Of a stretch of 36,342 bases of DNA, positions 7,117 to 13,947 are shown one piece after another; within the stretch, counting starts at the first letter, position 1, and each line of letters opens with the position of its first letter. Position numbers and translations under genes: made by a program. The notes beneath the pieces are model-generated. The model was not told the origin of the DNA. It searched no databases and was given only the letters and a program-made list of their open reading frames with translations. This stretch comes from Spirochaetales bacterium Spiro_02 (GTDB lineage Bacteria > Spirochaetota > Spirochaetia > Sphaerochaetales > Sphaerochaetaceae): the NCBI GenBank assembly GCA_001604275.1, contig LVBD01000045.1, forward strand, positions 1 to 36,342. Reading direction: 5' to 3'.

Positions 7117-7785
7117 ATGCCCATATCAAGCACCGATCTGTTCGATCTATACCACTCGCTATCCGCGCCGCTACTTCAGCAATTCGCCTTCCCGTGGGAA
7201 GCGTTGCCGAAACTGGAGGAATTCATCCTGATGCTCGGACCAAGCCTCCCCAACGAAGAATATGAAGAAGTCGAACAGCTTGTCTGGATCGCGAAGAATG
7301 CGACCATAGCGCCTTCGGCCCACATCGCCGGCCCTTGCATCATCGGAGCACACACCGAGGTCCGGCATTGCGCGTTCATCAGAGGAAGCGTACTGATCGG
7401 CGACGAATGCGTGGTCGGAAACTCCACGGAACTGAAGAACACGATCCTCTTCGACGCAGTCCAAGTACCGCACTTCAACTATGTCGGAGACAGCATCCTC
7501 GGCTACCAGGCGCACCTAGGGGCGGGTGCGATCACGAGCAATGTGAAATCGGACAACTCGACGGTCACGGTCAAGGACAGAATCGCAGCAACTGCGATCG
7601 ACACCGGCCTAGCGAAGTTCGGCGCCCTTGTCGGAGATTTCGTCGAAGTAGGATGCAACAGCGTTCTGAACCCGGGGACAGTCATCGGACGGCATACGAA
7701 CGTCTACCCGCTGACGAGTGTCCGAGGAATGATGCCCGGCAATTCGATCATCAAGCAGAACGGTATTCCGGTGGACAAGCGATGA
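7117..7785 (+). CDS. Left-handed beta-helix (hexapeptide) acyl/acetyltransferase-like protein
   Basis: The 222-residue protein has an alpha-helical N-terminus (1-60) followed by hexapeptide repeats from about residue 70 to 215: NATIAPSAHIAGPCIIGAHTEVRHCAFIRGSVLIGDECVVGNSTELKN and, further on, LGAGAITSNVKSD and LNPGTVIGRHTNVYPL. This is the left-handed beta-helix fold of the acetyltransferase half of GlmU-like enzymes. No nucleotidyltransferase domain is present. Such proteins are often annotated as UDP-N-acetylglucosamine diphosphorylase-like, but the substrate is not known. GAGGAGAG upstream supports the start. Its stop overlaps the jetA start as ATGA (7782-7785), so it is probably translated from the same message as the jet genes. 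Confidence 0.8.
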   Translation: MPISSTDLFDLYHSLSAPLLQQFAFPWEALPKLEEFILMLGPSLPNEEYEEVEQLVWIAKNATIAPSAHIAGPCIIGAHTEVRHCAFIRGSVLIGDECVVGNSTELKNTILFDAVQVPHFNYVGDSILGYQAHLGAGAITSNVKSDNSTVTVKDRIAATAIDTGLAKFGALVGDFVEVGCNSVLNPGTVIGRHTNVYPLTSVRGMMPGNSIIKQNGIPVDKR

Positions 7786-9275
7786 CTGGAATCACGAAAG
7801 AATATATCCGCACGATGATCGATACGAACAGCGGATTGCGGCTACTCCACTCAAGGAATGCGAGCGATGTCATCGCGTTCCTCTACCAGGTGTTCGGCGA
7901 TCTTGAAGAAACGAGCATGGAACAGGACAGGTTCCTCGCGCTGCTGGAGAGATACATCGGCGAGAACGAGATCCCCCCGGATGAAGCCGAGGATCCCTGT
8001 CAGGGAGGATTGGGGTTCGACAACAAGGCAAAGGCGAGAACCATGGTGAACGCATGGTGCCAGAAAGGATACCTACTCCGATCCTACAACGAAAGCGCCC
8101 AGGAAATCATTACATTGTCCGCCGGAACGAGCAGGCTCTTCAGGTTCCTCGAAGATATCGACAACAGCACCAAGGGCATCGTCGGAACAGACAGTAGATT
8201 CGCTTCGATCATCTATCAGATCACCGAACTGGAGGAGAAGACGACGGAAGATCCCCGGGAACGGATCCGGACGCTCAAGGCGAAGCAACAGGAAATCCAG
8301 GACGAAATCCTTGCCATCGAGGAACGAGGGATCGCACCGACCTTCACAAAAGTACAGGTGCAGGAACGGATCGAGGAATTGGAACGACAAAGCAAGGCCC
8401 TGCTCAGCGACTTCCGGCAGCTCAAGGACAACAACCATCGGCTGTTCCTGCAAATATGCCAGAAACAGCTCGAGGCGACGGACAGCAGAGGGGACATCCT
8501 TCAGTATACCATGGAAGGCCAAAGTGCGATCTCCAGCTCTCCTCAGGGACAGAGCTTCGATGCGTTCTGGGGCTATCTGACGCTGGAGGAAGAGGAGAAC
8601 ACCCTGTATCGGCAGATCAAGGCACTGGAGAAACGGGTCGAAGACACCGGCCTTGACTGGGACTTCACGTTCCTCCAGAATCTGGAAGACAGACTGTACG
8701 AGGAAGGCAAGAGCGTCAATGAAGAAAACCATATGCTCGCCTCCCGGCTCAGACGGATTCTGCTACGCTATGCAAGCGGGGAATATCAGCAGATGCAGGA
8801 ACTCAGCAGGGAGATCAAGGCTGCCTGCGCGACTCTCGCCGATATCCCAAAGGGCCCATGGCTGGAAGCGGACGGCAAGTTGAGCCTCGATACGACATTC
8901 TCCAGACCGCTTGTGCTGCCTCCGACTGTGACGCAGCATTCGGTGACGAACTACGAGGATCCCGGCAGTCCGACGGCGGGAGTGTTCGACCAGGTGTTCG
9001 CACAGCAAAGCATTTCGGCCGCGACGCTTCGCGATCGCTTGGAACTGCTTCGCAAGCAATATGCATCGTTCACGCTCAAAACAGTCGTAGAACGGTTTCC
9101 GTTGCAGTTCGGACTTGAAGAACTGCTCAAATACCTGACGCTCGGCATGAGGATGGACTCAGACTGCAAGAGCATCGACCCGAACGAGGAGGACGAAATT
9201 CTCTTCCTTTCATACCCAGACGGCCGCCCGACAGCGGTGACCATACCGAAGGTGATCATCTATGGAGAAAAATAA
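7782..9275 (+). CDS. jetA: Wadjet-type JetA (MukF/kleisin-like subunit)
   Basis: The 497-residue protein matches the JetA family (DUF3375 type) in length, in position before jetB and jetC, and in organisation. An N-terminal winged-helix-like part (residues 1-110, beginning ITKEYIRTMIDTNSGLRLLHSRNASDVIAFL) is followed by a long helical/coiled-coil middle (about 150-400), and the C-terminal segment is acidic (LSYPDGRPTAVTIPKVIIYG). In characterised Wadjet systems JetA is the kleisin subunit that joins the JetB and JetC proteins into a condensin-like ring acting on plasmid DNA. The start at ATG 7782 overlaps the preceding gene by four bases, and the end overlaps jetB by 14 bases. A longer open frame from 7335 is a read-through of the preceding gene region and is rejected. 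Family assignment rests on recognition plus the operon context. Confidence 0.8.
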   Translation: MTGITKEYIRTMIDTNSGLRLLHSRNASDVIAFLYQVFGDLEETSMEQDRFLALLERYIGENEIPPDEAEDPCQGGLGFDNKAKARTMVNAWCQKGYLLRSYNESAQEIITLSAGTSRLFRFLEDIDNSTKGIVGTDSRFASIIYQITELEEKTTEDPRERIRTLKAKQQEIQDEILAIEERGIAPTFTKVQVQERIEELERQSKALLSDFRQLKDNNHRLFLQICQKQLEATDSRGDILQYTMEGQSAISSSPQGQSFDAFWGYLTLEEEENTLYRQIKALEKRVEDTGLDWDFTFLQNLEDRLYEEGKSVNEENHMLASRLRRILLRYASGEYQQMQELSREIKAACATLADIPKGPWLEADGKLSLDTTFSRPLVLPPTVTQHSVTNYEDPGSPTAGVFDQVFAQQSISAATLRDRLELLRKQYASFTLKTVVERFPLQFGLEELLKYLTLGMRMDSDCKSIDPNEEDEILFLSYPDGRPTAVTIPKVIIYGEK

Positions 9276-10041
9276 CACTTGGGCGGCCGCCTGCATCCAC
9301 GTGCTGCAAAAGCCGCTATTCGCGGAAGATCGGGAATTGTTTTCGTCGCTATGCAATTATCGGCAGGAAGTGAGCTCATATCTCGCAAAAATCGGCCTGG
9401 AACTCGTTCTGAACCTCGACCTAGGCTACGCATTCATCAGACAGGCGGAGACATCCGATGAAAACGAACTACCGCTTCCGAAGCTGATCCGTCGGATTCC
9501 CGTCACGTTCGAGCAGTCGCTTGTTTTGGTGATCCTGTACGACGAGCTGGAGAAATTCGATAGCAACGGCGGCGAAGATCCCTTCTGCATCATGACGGAG
9601 GAACAGGTGCGGGAACTGGCGCAAACATGCTGGCCTGGCGCAAGTACCGACCAGACGAAGTTTCATGACGCGATCGCCCGCGCACTGTCGGATCTCGCCG
9701 AACAAGGGTTGGTCCGCGAACGCCGCCCACAGGGAATGGACGACCAGGAAAGCGAACGATACAAGACGAACCGGCGCTTCGAACTGCGGAACATCATCAG
9801 GGCGCGTGTCACGAAAGACTTCTTCCTCGAGTTCAAGCGTCGCCTGGAGGAGTGCATGGGAGCTGCTGAAAATCAGCCGTCGCAAGGACCGATGCTGGTG
9901 GAGTCCAGTCCTGACGGGCAAAGAACCGGCGGCACGGACCGGCATACCATCGAAGCTGAGCCTATGGACTCGGATCCTTTATCCGACTTCGTGGACGAAG
10001 AATCGGAAACAGGAGCAACGGAGGCTGAACATGACGAATGA
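9262..10041 (+). CDS. jetB: Wadjet-type JetB (MukE-like / KITE subunit)
   Basis: The 259-residue protein resembles JetB (DUF4194 type). A winged-helix core occupies roughly residues 15-200, including LASQ-like segments such as LFSSLCNYRQEVSSYLAKIGLELVLNLDLGYAFI, TFEQSLVLVILYDELEKF and the final FELRNIIRARVTKDFFLEFKRRLEE. The last 60 residues are acidic, probably disordered, and longer than in many relatives. In known systems a JetB dimer binds the kleisin JetA and touches DNA. It overlaps jetA by 14 bases and jetC by 11, so the three are translationally coupled. Confidence 0.8.
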   Translation: MEKNNTWAAACIHVLQKPLFAEDRELFSSLCNYRQEVSSYLAKIGLELVLNLDLGYAFIRQAETSDENELPLPKLIRRIPVTFEQSLVLVILYDELEKFDSNGGEDPFCIMTEEQVRELAQTCWPGASTDQTKFHDAIARALSDLAEQGLVRERRPQGMDDQESERYKTNRRFELRNIIRARVTKDFFLEFKRRLEECMGAAENQPSQGPMLVESSPDGQRTGGTDRHTIEAEPMDSDPLSDFVDEESETGATEAEHDE

Positions 10042-13000
10042 ATTCCTGTTCGACGATCTGATTGAAAAAACCGGCTACCGGCTGTCGGTGTTCGAACTAT
10101 ACAACTGGGGAACCTTCGACAACCATATCGTGCATCTTGAGCTCGGAGGAGAAAACTCGTTGCTGACCGGCGGCAATGGATCCGGCAAGACGACGATCGT
10201 AGATGCGATCCTGACGCTGCTGGTCCCATCCGAATACATCAGCTACAACATATCGTCAGGAAAGGAAGGCAGGGATGGCCGGACGATGGACAGCTATGTC
10301 CGCGGAGCTTGGTCCACGCACAAGGGCGACGATCAGTATTCGGCAAGCAAGGACTATCTGCGTGATCGGACCACCCACTCCATATTGCTTGGGACATTCA
10401 TCAACGCGGGGGCGGAGCAACCGATCACGTTGCTACAGATACATTACTATAATCCGAGCGGAGCGTTGCAGCATCTGTATGCGATCTTCGATCAGGCGGT
10501 CACGATCAGACAGCTTCAGGCCACTGCAGGGGTATTCAACCCCGCGCAGCTCAGAAACTACAAGTCCAGCATTACCGATCAGTACGCCCAGGGCGTCCAG
10601 TTCTTCGATACGTTCCGCAGCTATAGCAAGGTCTTCGGAGAACGAGTCGGTTTCCGTTCCCGAGAAAAAGCGCTGAAGATATTCAGCAAGACCGTCGGCA
10701 TGAAGGATCTGACGAATCTCAACGAATTCATCAGGAACCATATGCTCGACGAATCCGATTTCGAGTCAGAGTTCAAGAACCTGAGCGACAGCTACGACAA
10801 CCTGCACAACACCCAGCTAGAGATCGAAAAGGATGACGAACAGCTCCGTCAGCTCAAGCGGATACTCGACGAGGGGCGGCGCTACGGAGAGAAAATCGCG
10901 GAATACGGGGCGACCAAGCAAGACGAGGATTTCTGCGAAGTGTGGAAGGCCTGGCAATCGAAGCGTTTCCTTGCGTTCGAAATCGATAAGTTCCGTGCGG
11001 AACGATCCCTCGTTTCTGGAGAGCTCACCGAAAAGCAACTTGCGCAGGAGAGTCAGGAAGTCAAGCGCGACGAACTGAAGAATCAATTGAACCAGAACGA
11101 GCGCTATCGGCAGCTGGAGGATCAGCGACGGTCGCTGAACGCGAAACAGACGCTGCTCGCCGAGCGAATGGAAACACGGGAATTCTATGCGAACCGTGCA
11201 AGGCACATCGATATGCAGGTGCCATTCGATGAAGCGGCGTTCGAAGCAAACCTGTTTTCGCTGTCCAGAAGACAGCGCTCCATCGAGGAGAAGAACGAAA
11301 GTCTCCAGGAGAACATCAATGTTTCCGCCCAGCACAGGCAGGAACTGCAGACGCAGCTGAGAATCACCGAAGAGCAGATCCAGGCGCTCGCGGGACGGAA
11401 TTCGAACATTCCGCTCCCCTATCTGCAGGAACGAGCAAGGCTCTGCCAATGGCTCAATGTTTCCGAAGAGGAGCTGCCGTTCGCCGGAGAGCTGATGCAG
11501 GTGCGTGAGGATTTCGAGTCGCAACGCAAGATCATCGAACTGATCCTGCATGATTTTTCGCTGACGCTGCTGATCCCGCAATCGCTTCGGAACAAGGTAT
11601 GCCAGTATCTGTGGGCAAACCAGGTCAATGTATCTCTCGCCTATGTCGCGTTGCCGAAGGAACAGTTTCTTCCTACGGAAAACGACGACGAACCCCTGCT
11701 GTGCAATGCGATCGAGACCAAGGAAGAGCATCGCTACGGCAGCTGGGTCCTTTCGCATCTCCAGCAACGTTTCAGCAATGCGTTGGTACTGTCGCTCGAT
11801 GAACTGTTCCATACCGAGCTCGCCTACAGCGAACGGCAGATTACGCGCGACGGATTGTACTATAAAGCGTATGCGGCGTTGGAAAAACAATCCGACATCT
11901 ATGTGATGGGCTGGGATACGGCTCGCAAGCAGGAACAGCTGATCATCGACAAGGACAACCTGCTCAACGCGATCGACGAACTCGATCAAGCAATCAAGGA
12001 AGATGTGCGTCAGATCGCCAGGAACAAAGAAAAAATCGAAGCGATCATTGAGATCAGGACGATTGGAAGTTATGAAAAAATCGATACGCGTTCTCCGGAA
12101 GCCGAAATAGAGGAGATATCCTGCCGGATAGAGGAAATGGAACAGTGTCTAGGGGATGTCGAAAACCTTCGAAAGCAATTGCAGCGGGTTGATATGTCGA
12201 TCAGGGAACTCAAGGCCAGTTGCGAACATCTTGTCTCCGAACGGGGCCGCATAGACGGAAGGCTCGCTCAGTTCGAAGAAATGCTCGGACACCGCACGCA
12301 GCTCCTCAAGGAGGAAGATCCGCAGACACTGGAGCAACGTTGTTCCGATTTTTCCGGTCGGTACGATCTGCCCGATATCTGGAGCAGCCTCGATAGCCTT
12401 GACGATGCCGCCGACAGAACCCGTCGGCAACTGGATGACAGCATCCAGACATTGCTCGCCCAGATGAACGACAGCAAGGACCGGTGCCTCAACCTGATGT
12501 CGAACTTCTGCAAGCCCGGACAGGATACGCTGACAAAATATCCTACATGGACGAGCAATCTTCTGGAATTAGGCACCGAACAGTTCTCCATGCAGGATCT
12601 GCCTGCATTCCGCAAGGTCTACGATCATTTGCTCGAGGACGACTTGCCACGCCACAAGGAACAGTTCGCAAGCTATCGCACCAGTCTGATCGGCAAGGAC
12701 GTCATTTCGTTCAGCAGGATGCTGGGAAGCTGGCAGCGGATGATCGACGAGAATATCGTCGACTTGAATACGAGCCTCCAGAGGATCAACTACAACCACG
12801 ATCCACAGACCGGAGCGAAGACCCATATCCGCATCAAGAAGCAACCGAATCCTGATGATTCGGTCCGTACTCTCAAATCCTTGATCCGTGCGGCGATGCC
12901 GACACCATTGATCCAGGAGAACGCTCCAGCGCAGAAGAAGCTCGAGGAGCAGAACCAGTACTTCGGACAGGTGGATGCCCTGCTCGGGTTCCTTCGTCAA

Positions 13001-13456
13001 GACGATGTCCGGCAGAAGGTGCTGGACGTGAGAAGGTGGTTCGTCTTCGCTGCGGAAGAGTACGATGTCCAGTCGGGCGACCAGCTGAGATATTATCAGG
13101 ATAGCGCCGGGATTTCCGGCGGTCAGAAGGCAAAGCTCGCTTACACGATCTTCGCCGCTGCCATTGCGAAACAGTTCGATGTGTTCAGCGATGAAAGCGC
13201 TTCGCGCTCGTTCCGTTTCGTTCTGATCGACGAGGCGTTTAGCAAGATAGACGATGAGAACAGTCGGTATGCGATGCAACTGTTCACCCAGCTGAATCTG
13301 CAGCTGATGGTCATTACTCCATTGGACAAGGGGAACTTGGTCCTGCCGTTCATCAGGACGGTACAAGTCACTGAATGTCCGAATGGAAAGAATTCACAGG
13401 TCGTCAGCGTCAGAGTAGAGGATTTCGATGAGCGAGGTGAAACAGCTGGAAGCTGA
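10031..13456 (+). CDS. jetC: Wadjet-type JetC, SMC-like ATPase (MukB-like)
   Basis: This 1141-residue SMC-type protein has the split ATPase head and long coiled coil of the family. Near the N-terminus are LYNWGTFDNHIVHLELGGEN and the Walker A motif GGNGSGKTT (about 47-55), followed by the JetC-typical segment SSGKEGRDGRTMDSYVRGAW. Long heptad-rich regions span about 250-480 and 640-1000. At the C-terminus are the ABC signature SGGQKAKLAY (about 1029-1038), Walker B VLIDEAFSKID (about 1064-1074) and a final LVLPFIRTVQVTE. All catalytic motifs appear intact, so the ATPase is probably functional. In studied Wadjet systems JetABC extrudes DNA loops and senses small circular DNA. The protein is of normal length. 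The expected downstream gene jetD is missing. Confidence 0.88.
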   Translation: MTNEFLFDDLIEKTGYRLSVFELYNWGTFDNHIVHLELGGENSLLTGGNGSGKTTIVDAILTLLVPSEYISYNISSGKEGRDGRTMDSYVRGAWSTHKGDDQYSASKDYLRDRTTHSILLGTFINAGAEQPITLLQIHYYNPSGALQHLYAIFDQAVTIRQLQATAGVFNPAQLRNYKSSITDQYAQGVQFFDTFRSYSKVFGERVGFRSREKALKIFSKTVGMKDLTNLNEFIRNHMLDESDFESEFKNLSDSYDNLHNTQLEIEKDDEQLRQLKRILDEGRRYGEKIAEYGATKQDEDFCEVWKAWQSKRFLAFEIDKFRAERSLVSGELTEKQLAQESQEVKRDELKNQLNQNERYRQLEDQRRSLNAKQTLLAERMETREFYANRARHIDMQVPFDEAAFEANLFSLSRRQRSIEEKNESLQENINVSAQHRQELQTQLRITEEQIQALAGRNSNIPLPYLQERARLCQWLNVSEEELPFAGELMQVREDFESQRKIIELILHDFSLTLLIPQSLRNKVCQYLWANQVNVSLAYVALPKEQFLPTENDDEPLLCNAIETKEEHRYGSWVLSHLQQRFSNALVLSLDELFHTELAYSERQITRDGLYYKAYAALEKQSDIYVMGWDTARKQEQLIIDKDNLLNAIDELDQAIKEDVRQIARNKEKIEAIIEIRTIGSYEKIDTRSPEAEIEEISCRIEEMEQCLGDVENLRKQLQRVDMSIRELKASCEHLVSERGRIDGRLAQFEEMLGHRTQLLKEEDPQTLEQRCSDFSGRYDLPDIWSSLDSLDDAADRTRRQLDDSIQTLLAQMNDSKDRCLNLMSNFCKPGQDTLTKYPTWTSNLLELGTEQFSMQDLPAFRKVYDHLLEDDLPRHKEQFASYRTSLIGKDVISFSRMLGSWQRMIDENIVDLNTSLQRINYNHDPQTGAKTHIRIKKQPNPDDSVRTLKSLIRAAMPTPLIQENAPAQKKLEEQNQYFGQVDALLGFLRQDDVRQKVLDVRRWFVFAAEEYDVQSGDQLRYYQDSAGISGGQKAKLAYTIFAAAIAKQFDVFSDESASRSFRFVLIDEAFSKIDDENSRYAMQLFTQLNLQLMVITPLDKGNLVLPFIRTVQVTECPNGKNSQVVSVRVEDFDERGETAGS

Positions 13457-13547
13457 AAACGTCTTGGACCGGCAGGAAACAGACGGGATGATATCGAAAA
13501 TCGTACACTATTGTTTTCCATATAGAAATTATTTGCCAAATCAATAG
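13428..13547 (+). CDS. 39-codon open frame at the expected jetD start, possible remnant
   Basis: An ATG overlaps the end of jetC by 29 bases, in the way jet genes commonly overlap, and opens a frame of 39 codons. The frame starts MSEVKQLEAENVLDRQETDG and stops at TAG 13545-13547. The first 25 codons have normal GC content, and the rest lies in AT-rich DNA that looks intergenic. It could be the truncated beginning of a deleted jetD, a small novel peptide, or chance. I see no recognisable JetD sequence in it. Confidence 0.25.
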   Translation: MSEVKQLEAENVLDRQETDGMISKIVHYCFPYRNYLPNQ

Positions 13548-13571
13548 AATATATTTCCATATGAAAATTAT
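13514..13571. promoter_or_regulatory. Two near-palindromic boxes at the XRE-gene 5' end, putative operator
   Basis: TTTCCATATAGAAATTAT (13515-13532) and TTTCCATATGAAAATTAT (13554-13571) differ at only two positions and lie 39 bases apart. Each has a dyad TTTC-CATA-GAAA character. Between them is TAGAAT (13545-13550), a possible -10 box. This arrangement suits repression by the adjacent XRE-type protein, possibly autoregulation. The second box overlaps the most upstream ATG of that gene. Confidence 0.5.
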
Positions 13572-13947
13572 CGCGTTTCCGGCAGAGTATATATACAGCG
13601 TGTTGGAATTTTGGAAACGCATTCAGGAAGCGCTGAAAGATAGCGAGCTCTCCATGGCGGAAGTATCCCGGCTCACGGGCATACCTCATGCGACCATATC
13701 CAACTGGATCCGCAACGACCGCTACCCGCCCATCGATTTGGCGGCAAGGATGGCGAAAGCGATCGGCATATCATTGGAATGGATGGTCTACGGAAAAGAA
13801 TCTCTGGACGAGTACTACGAGGATATCGAACCGGACAAGTTCTTCCATCTGTTCAGAACGCTCGAAAGCCTGAACGACAAGCAGATCTCAGTCCTCGAGA
13901 AAATGGCCCAATATTTGGCGGAAAGCAACGAACCGGGCGCCCGGTAA
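13561..13947 (+). CDS. XRE-family helix-turn-helix regulator
   Basis: The 128-residue frame contains a Cro/C1-type HTH (MAEVSRLTGIPHATISNWIRNDRYPPIDLAARMAKAIGISLEWMVYG, about residues 31-75) followed by an acidic helical tail (about 80-125). It probably binds DNA as a dimer. The start is uncertain. ATG 13561 overlaps an operator-like box, while GTG 13600 or TTG 13603 would give a protein starting near EFWKRIQEALKD, which is more usual for the family. None has a clear Shine-Dalgarno sequence. It occupies the position after jetABC where jetD would be, on the same strand, so it may control the jet operon, itself or both. That is inference from position only. Confidence 0.85.
   Translation: MKIIAFPAEYIYSVLEFWKRIQEALKDSELSMAEVSRLTGIPHATISNWIRNDRYPPIDLAARMAKAIGISLEWMVYGKESLDEYYEDIEPDKFFHLFRTLESLNDKQISVLEKMAQYLAESNEPGAR

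Follow-up and report, generated by a model that had tools for sequence, protein, structure and literature searches.

The window analysed here, the whole stretch of DNA under study, is an entire contig of 36,342 bases from a Sphaerochaetaceae genome of 2.61 Mb (74 contigs, 99.7% complete, 3.7% contamination). It carries three consecutive, overlapping ORFs that form one operon in the order jetA, jetB, jetC. The operon and its immediate surroundings contain the following features:

7117–7785, plus strand: hexapeptide-repeat acyltransferase-like gene (Pfam Hexapep, E 6e-15), overlapping jetA by 4 bases
7782–9275, plus strand: jetA (mksF), kleisin, DUF3375, 497 aa (Pfam PF11855, E 4e-76; PADLOC JetA1, 4e-82; PDB JetA chains, E 4e-11)
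9262–10041, plus strand: jetB (mksE), KITE subunit, DUF4194, 259 aa (Pfam PF13835, E 2e-29; PADLOC JetB1, 9e-38)
9847–10038, plus strand: C-terminal region of JetB with an acidic tail (from alignments)
10022–13456, plus strand: jetC (mksB), SMC-type ATPase, 1144 aa (PADLOC JetC1, E 2e-244; PDB JetC, E 3e-40; Pfam AAA_29 and SbcC_Walker_B)
13428–13547, plus strand: 39-codon frame at the position where jetD starts in relatives, probably not a gene (29 bases shared with the end of jetC)
13515–13532, no strand: palindrome-like site TTTCCATATAGAAATTAT, copy 1, putative operator of the XRE regulator (window scan)
13554–13571, no strand: palindrome-like site TTTCCATATGAAAATTAT, copy 2, overlapping the first ATG of the XRE ORF (window scan)
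13561–13947, plus strand: XRE-family regulator (HTH_3; Pfam PF01381, E 2e-11)

The best PADLOC profiles for all three genes are those of type I (JetA1, JetB1 and JetC1), and the combination of jetA (DUF3375), jetB (DUF4194) and an SMC ATPase gene in a single operon is that of a Wadjet type I system. Its three intact subunits and lack of a nuclease also fit an MksBEF-type condensin. JetC retains all its ATPase motifs: Walker A, GGNGSGKT, at residue 50, the signature SGGQ at 1032 and Walker B, LIDEAF, at 1068. The match of JetB to PDB chains is weak compared with those of JetA (E 4e-11) and JetC (E 3e-40). A first-pass annotation made from the sequence had proposed a jetABC set of the right size, order and motifs with an undamaged SMC ATPase, and the ORFs, Pfam, PADLOC and our reading of the motifs all agree with it. 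The start codon of jetA, an ATG, overlaps the stop codon of the gene directly upstream. GC and GC3 of the operon equal those of the flanking genes, so by composition it is not a recent foreign insert. A search of the window against Rfam gave zero matches, scans for promoters and terminators did no better than on shuffled sequences, and searches for close relatives found no match in viral contigs and distant matches only in plasmids.

In complete relatives, jetD starts near the stop codon of jetC, in most cases with an overlap of between a few and about 40 bases. Here, jetC is followed by the 39-codon frame and then by the XRE-type regulator. The first-pass annotation had noticed that jetD was missing both after jetC and from the rest of the window; a tblastn search and a JetD profile run on all six frames of the window likewise yielded nothing convincing. 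It had also suggested looking through the genome as a whole. PF09983 (JetD) found no match in the entire genome (2.6 Mb, 99.7% complete), nor did a 12-member JetD profile at E values up to 10, and on these grounds we reject a jetD located elsewhere in the genome. The JetD Toprim nuclease is therefore encoded neither beside jetC nor elsewhere in the assembled genome, and within the limits of the assembly its absence is real. Cutting or restriction of plasmids is not expected without JetD. The 39-codon frame scores 0.3 bits against the N-terminal JetD profile, a value equalled or exceeded by 290 of 1844 scored shuffles, and its interpretation as a jetD remnant is thus unsupported.

We also considered whether the neighbours belong to the system. 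With up to 3 mismatches allowed, the palindrome-like site TTTCCATATRGAAATTAT occurs twice in the window, where 0.01 copies are expected. Since the second copy covers the first ATG of the XRE ORF, the real start is probably the GTG at 13600. The sites lie in an AT-rich region upstream of the XRE gene that separates it from jetC, and the regulator may control its own expression through them. The other jetD-less sets described below have no XRE gene beside them, and no neighbour is common to these sets. An association of the regulator with the D-less form, which had been put forward as a check, was thus not seen, and we reject the regulator as a component of the system because the association is not conserved and the gene has palindromic sites of its own. 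The acyltransferase-like gene has relatives in 41 of 139 genomes of the family. It was rejected as a Jet partner since it belongs to the family's resident genes and adjoins other genes in relatives; in several family members it precedes a phosphoglucosamine-mutase-like gene instead. This change of neighbours indicates that the locus has been rearranged. No replacement nuclease was recognised among the annotated neighbours (the hexapeptide acyltransferase, the XRE regulator, a LigB-type dioxygenase and a glutaredoxin).

In the family, 18 of 139 genomes carry jetC and 25 carry JetD_C; in the class, the corresponding numbers are 62 and 96 of 395. Where enough DNA after jetC could be read, every jetABC set of the Spirochaetia but that of the window has jetD beside jetC. 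The five closest relatives, at 37% JetC identity, belong to the same family and are all complete JetABCD systems, and the JetC tree places the window protein as sister to these five. Its root-to-tip length of 1.02 falls within the range of the sisters that have jetD (0.85–1.15). Since the five nearest relatives and the other readable Spirochaetia sets keep jetD, the simplest account is that this genome's lineage lost the gene. The loss could be recent, on a comparison limited to relatives at 37% JetC identity.

Some further variants turned up in the survey. In L068 (G398:C10), jetD follows jetC on the opposite strand, and the jetC match contains one in-frame TGA. Two genomes of one spirochaete genus each contain an orphan SMC gene of the jetC/mksB type (L120, 6571–9897, G206:C142; L111, 1–1902, G238:C154), neither with jetA, jetB or jetD adjoining. 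Both orphans lie next to a CDF-type cation efflux gene and resemble the orphan MksB of Borrelia. Stand-alone fragments of the C-terminal JetC head occur in another spirochaete genome (L112, 6076–6549, G331:C16) and on a plasmid of Treponema saccharophilum (NZ_AP025289.1, 233766–234170), with 54% identity over about 138 residues.

One of the distinguishing features of the window operon is the C-terminal tail of JetB. Residues 196–259 contain 19 D/E and 2 K/R residues, and the protein extends about 55 aa past the end of other JetBs. The tail is absent from the other 25 of the 26 JetBs that we aligned, whether or not their operons include jetD. We could not locate the IFDR docking motif described for JetB (PMC10586767) in proteins as short as these. 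Of the positions that are invariant among the sisters, 22 of 60 (37%) deviate in the window JetB, as against 79 of 309 (26%) in JetC. This higher deviation is suggestive only, and would fit relaxed constraint as well as adaptation.

A single scan of genome contigs identified three jetABC sets without jetD in about 6 kb of downstream DNA:

L032: D-less set of Bacteroidetes MAG-49
L033: D-less set of Sericytochromatia MAG_89
L045: D-less set of a MAG labelled Rikenella

JetD was not found in these three genomes by the 12-row profile or PF09983. D-less relatives of L033 are present in G705 (88% JetC identity), G706 (58%) and G704 (59%, split over contig ends), and a D-less pair in Bacteroidales (G521 and G625) shares 88% JetC identity; PF09983 matches in these two genomes are sub-threshold only and also score low on the JetD profile. 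G706 contains a separate, complete JetABCD in addition to its D-less set. Nei-Gojobori estimates of dN/dS between Sericytochromatia G443 and G705 are 0.049 for jetC, 0.050 for jetB and 0.087 for the part of jetA compared, and the value for jetC between G521 and G625 is 0.043. With dN/dS near 0.05 in D-less lineages, JetABC can be kept under strong purifying selection without JetD, as these sequences indicate for two lineages other than that of the window. This lends support to the earlier suggestion that retained function without cutting is plausible. On a quick, unpolarised JetC tree, at least five changes (gains or losses) are required to explain the D-less rows, and a single D-less clade is rejected (AU test, p 0.001).

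The intergenic regions of two of these sets contain additional ORFs. Between jetA and jetB of L045 (4579–5353) there are two, one of which has a sub-threshold match to an HNH nuclease (PF14279, E 7e-4); it is possible that this ORF encodes an alternative effector. At the same place in the D-less set of G706 (L141, 4188–4740) we found a BrnT/CopG-like toxin-antitoxin pair, again by sub-threshold Pfam matches.

Compared with Wadjet type I (JetABCD, also known as MksBEFG or EptABCD), the window operon has the same kleisin, KITE and SMC subunits, the same A-B-C order and the same overlapping genes, and its closest relatives are the complete systems described above. It differs in lacking the JetD/MksG nuclease, the defining effector, and in the acidic tail of JetB. 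MksBEF of P. aeruginosa PAO1 is likewise a three-subunit JetABC-like complex that has no nuclease and works beside a canonical Smc. The window operon probably arose independently of it, its JetC being nested in the Sphaerochaetaceae JetABCD clade of a tree that does not include PAO1 MksB. With the Pfam MksE model, the window JetB scores 25.9, just under the cut-off of 27, and it is far above the cut-off for DUF4194. Stenotrophomonas maltophilia, from a different phylum, has by description a Wadjet I locus in which jetABC are also kept without jetD (PMC11680222). The MksB of Borrelia burgdorferi is a spirochaete MksB-type SMC protein without a nuclease that promotes long-range chromosome contacts (PMC10406323), but in that species MksE and MksF are absent as well, whereas the window operon has both partners. 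MukBEF shares the KITE-type SMC architecture; the match of the window to MukB (E 0.014) is below the cut-off, and the operon is not a member of that group. The first-pass annotation had held that retained function without cutting would be new. This does not stand, given P. aeruginosa MksBEF (PMC10586767), the S. maltophilia locus and the further independent cases: the window operon adds another independent example of a form that is already known.

In the established mechanism, JetABC acts as a motor that extrudes the plasmid, and JetD makes its cut at the end of that process (PMC12647877, PMC10586767). We somewhat favour the view that the operon now encodes an accessory, non-cleaving loop extruder, an MksBEF-like organiser of the chromosome and not a plasmid cutter. 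A type I Wadjet operon (JetABCD/MksBEFG) would have lost its JetD/MksG nuclease on the lineage to this genome. Together with the JetA kleisin and the JetB KITE subunit, dimers of JetC would continue to load on DNA and to use ATP for loop extrusion; extrusion would run to completion and no cut would follow, JetD being absent. JetABC would then serve beside the resident Smc-ScpA, as MksBEF does in P. aeruginosa. The genome encodes canonical Smc and ScpA, which excludes JetABC as the sole condensin and favours an accessory role, as PAO1 also has SMC. The same genes count against this explanation in that, a priori, a cell with Smc and ScpA has no need of another condensin. PAO1 does not survive when MksB, SMC and ParB are all removed together (PMC7485682), and the Borrelia MksB increases long-range contacts without MksE or MksF (PMC10406323).

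The most serious competitor, which we consider possible but rather doubtful, is that a defence system was recently disarmed here: jetD, for example as a costly nuclease, was deleted, and jetABC are functionless relics that have not yet decayed. This would agree with the window operon being the only one of the examined Spirochaetia jetABC sets that lacks jetD, with no close D-less relative and with unrelated genes on both flanks, and the jetD-less Wadjet I of S. maltophilia was indeed judged "probably inactive" (PMC11680222). However, 1,900 codons are free of stops, frameshifts and loss of motifs, the divergence of JetC is clock-like with that of the sisters that have jetD, and D-less sets elsewhere persist under purifying selection. 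Very fresh decay is also difficult to reconcile with the fact that no remnant of jetD is left.

We regard it as unlikely that JetABC works with another effector, be it that plasmids are trapped or silenced by extrusion and holding, or that a different nuclease or the products of neighbouring genes are recruited, with the acidic JetB tail as a docking or regulatory element. The tail, unique among the aligned JetBs, and the HNH-like ORF between jetA and jetB of L045 might point in this direction, but the annotated neighbours of the window operon include none that we recognised as nuclease-like, D-less sets have no common neighbour, and the L045 match is under the Pfam cut-off. We give equally little credence to a non-cleaving extruder whose action on plasmids persists through sequestration, silencing or a different effector, and in which the tail would replace the JetD interface. 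Under that reading, and more widely, successive losses of JetD would offer a general path along which SMC systems that cut plasmids are turned into tools of the host. An assembly artefact, with jetD present in the organism but dropped or hidden in an unassembled gap, appears more improbable still. The genome is a draft in many contigs with some contamination. Yet it is almost complete, and two different JetD searches came back empty; the contig runs on for about 22.9 kb past jetC, all available for inspection, with ordinary genes and a regulator that has its own palindromic sites; and jetD adjoins jetC in all relatives that have it and leave room to see.

The D-less sets, that of the window among them, bear on whether SMC complexes pass from defence to chromosome organisation or in the opposite direction. 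That JetD has been lost repeatedly, and under selection, is a more interesting result than the window case itself. With at least five independent changes, two lineages at dN/dS of about 0.05 and one genome with both a D-less and a complete set, the D-less sets are natural experiments, in which JetABC with and without JetD can be compared for loop extrusion, chromosome contacts and plasmid handling. Counting jetABC matches as Wadjet defence overstates plasmid immunity.
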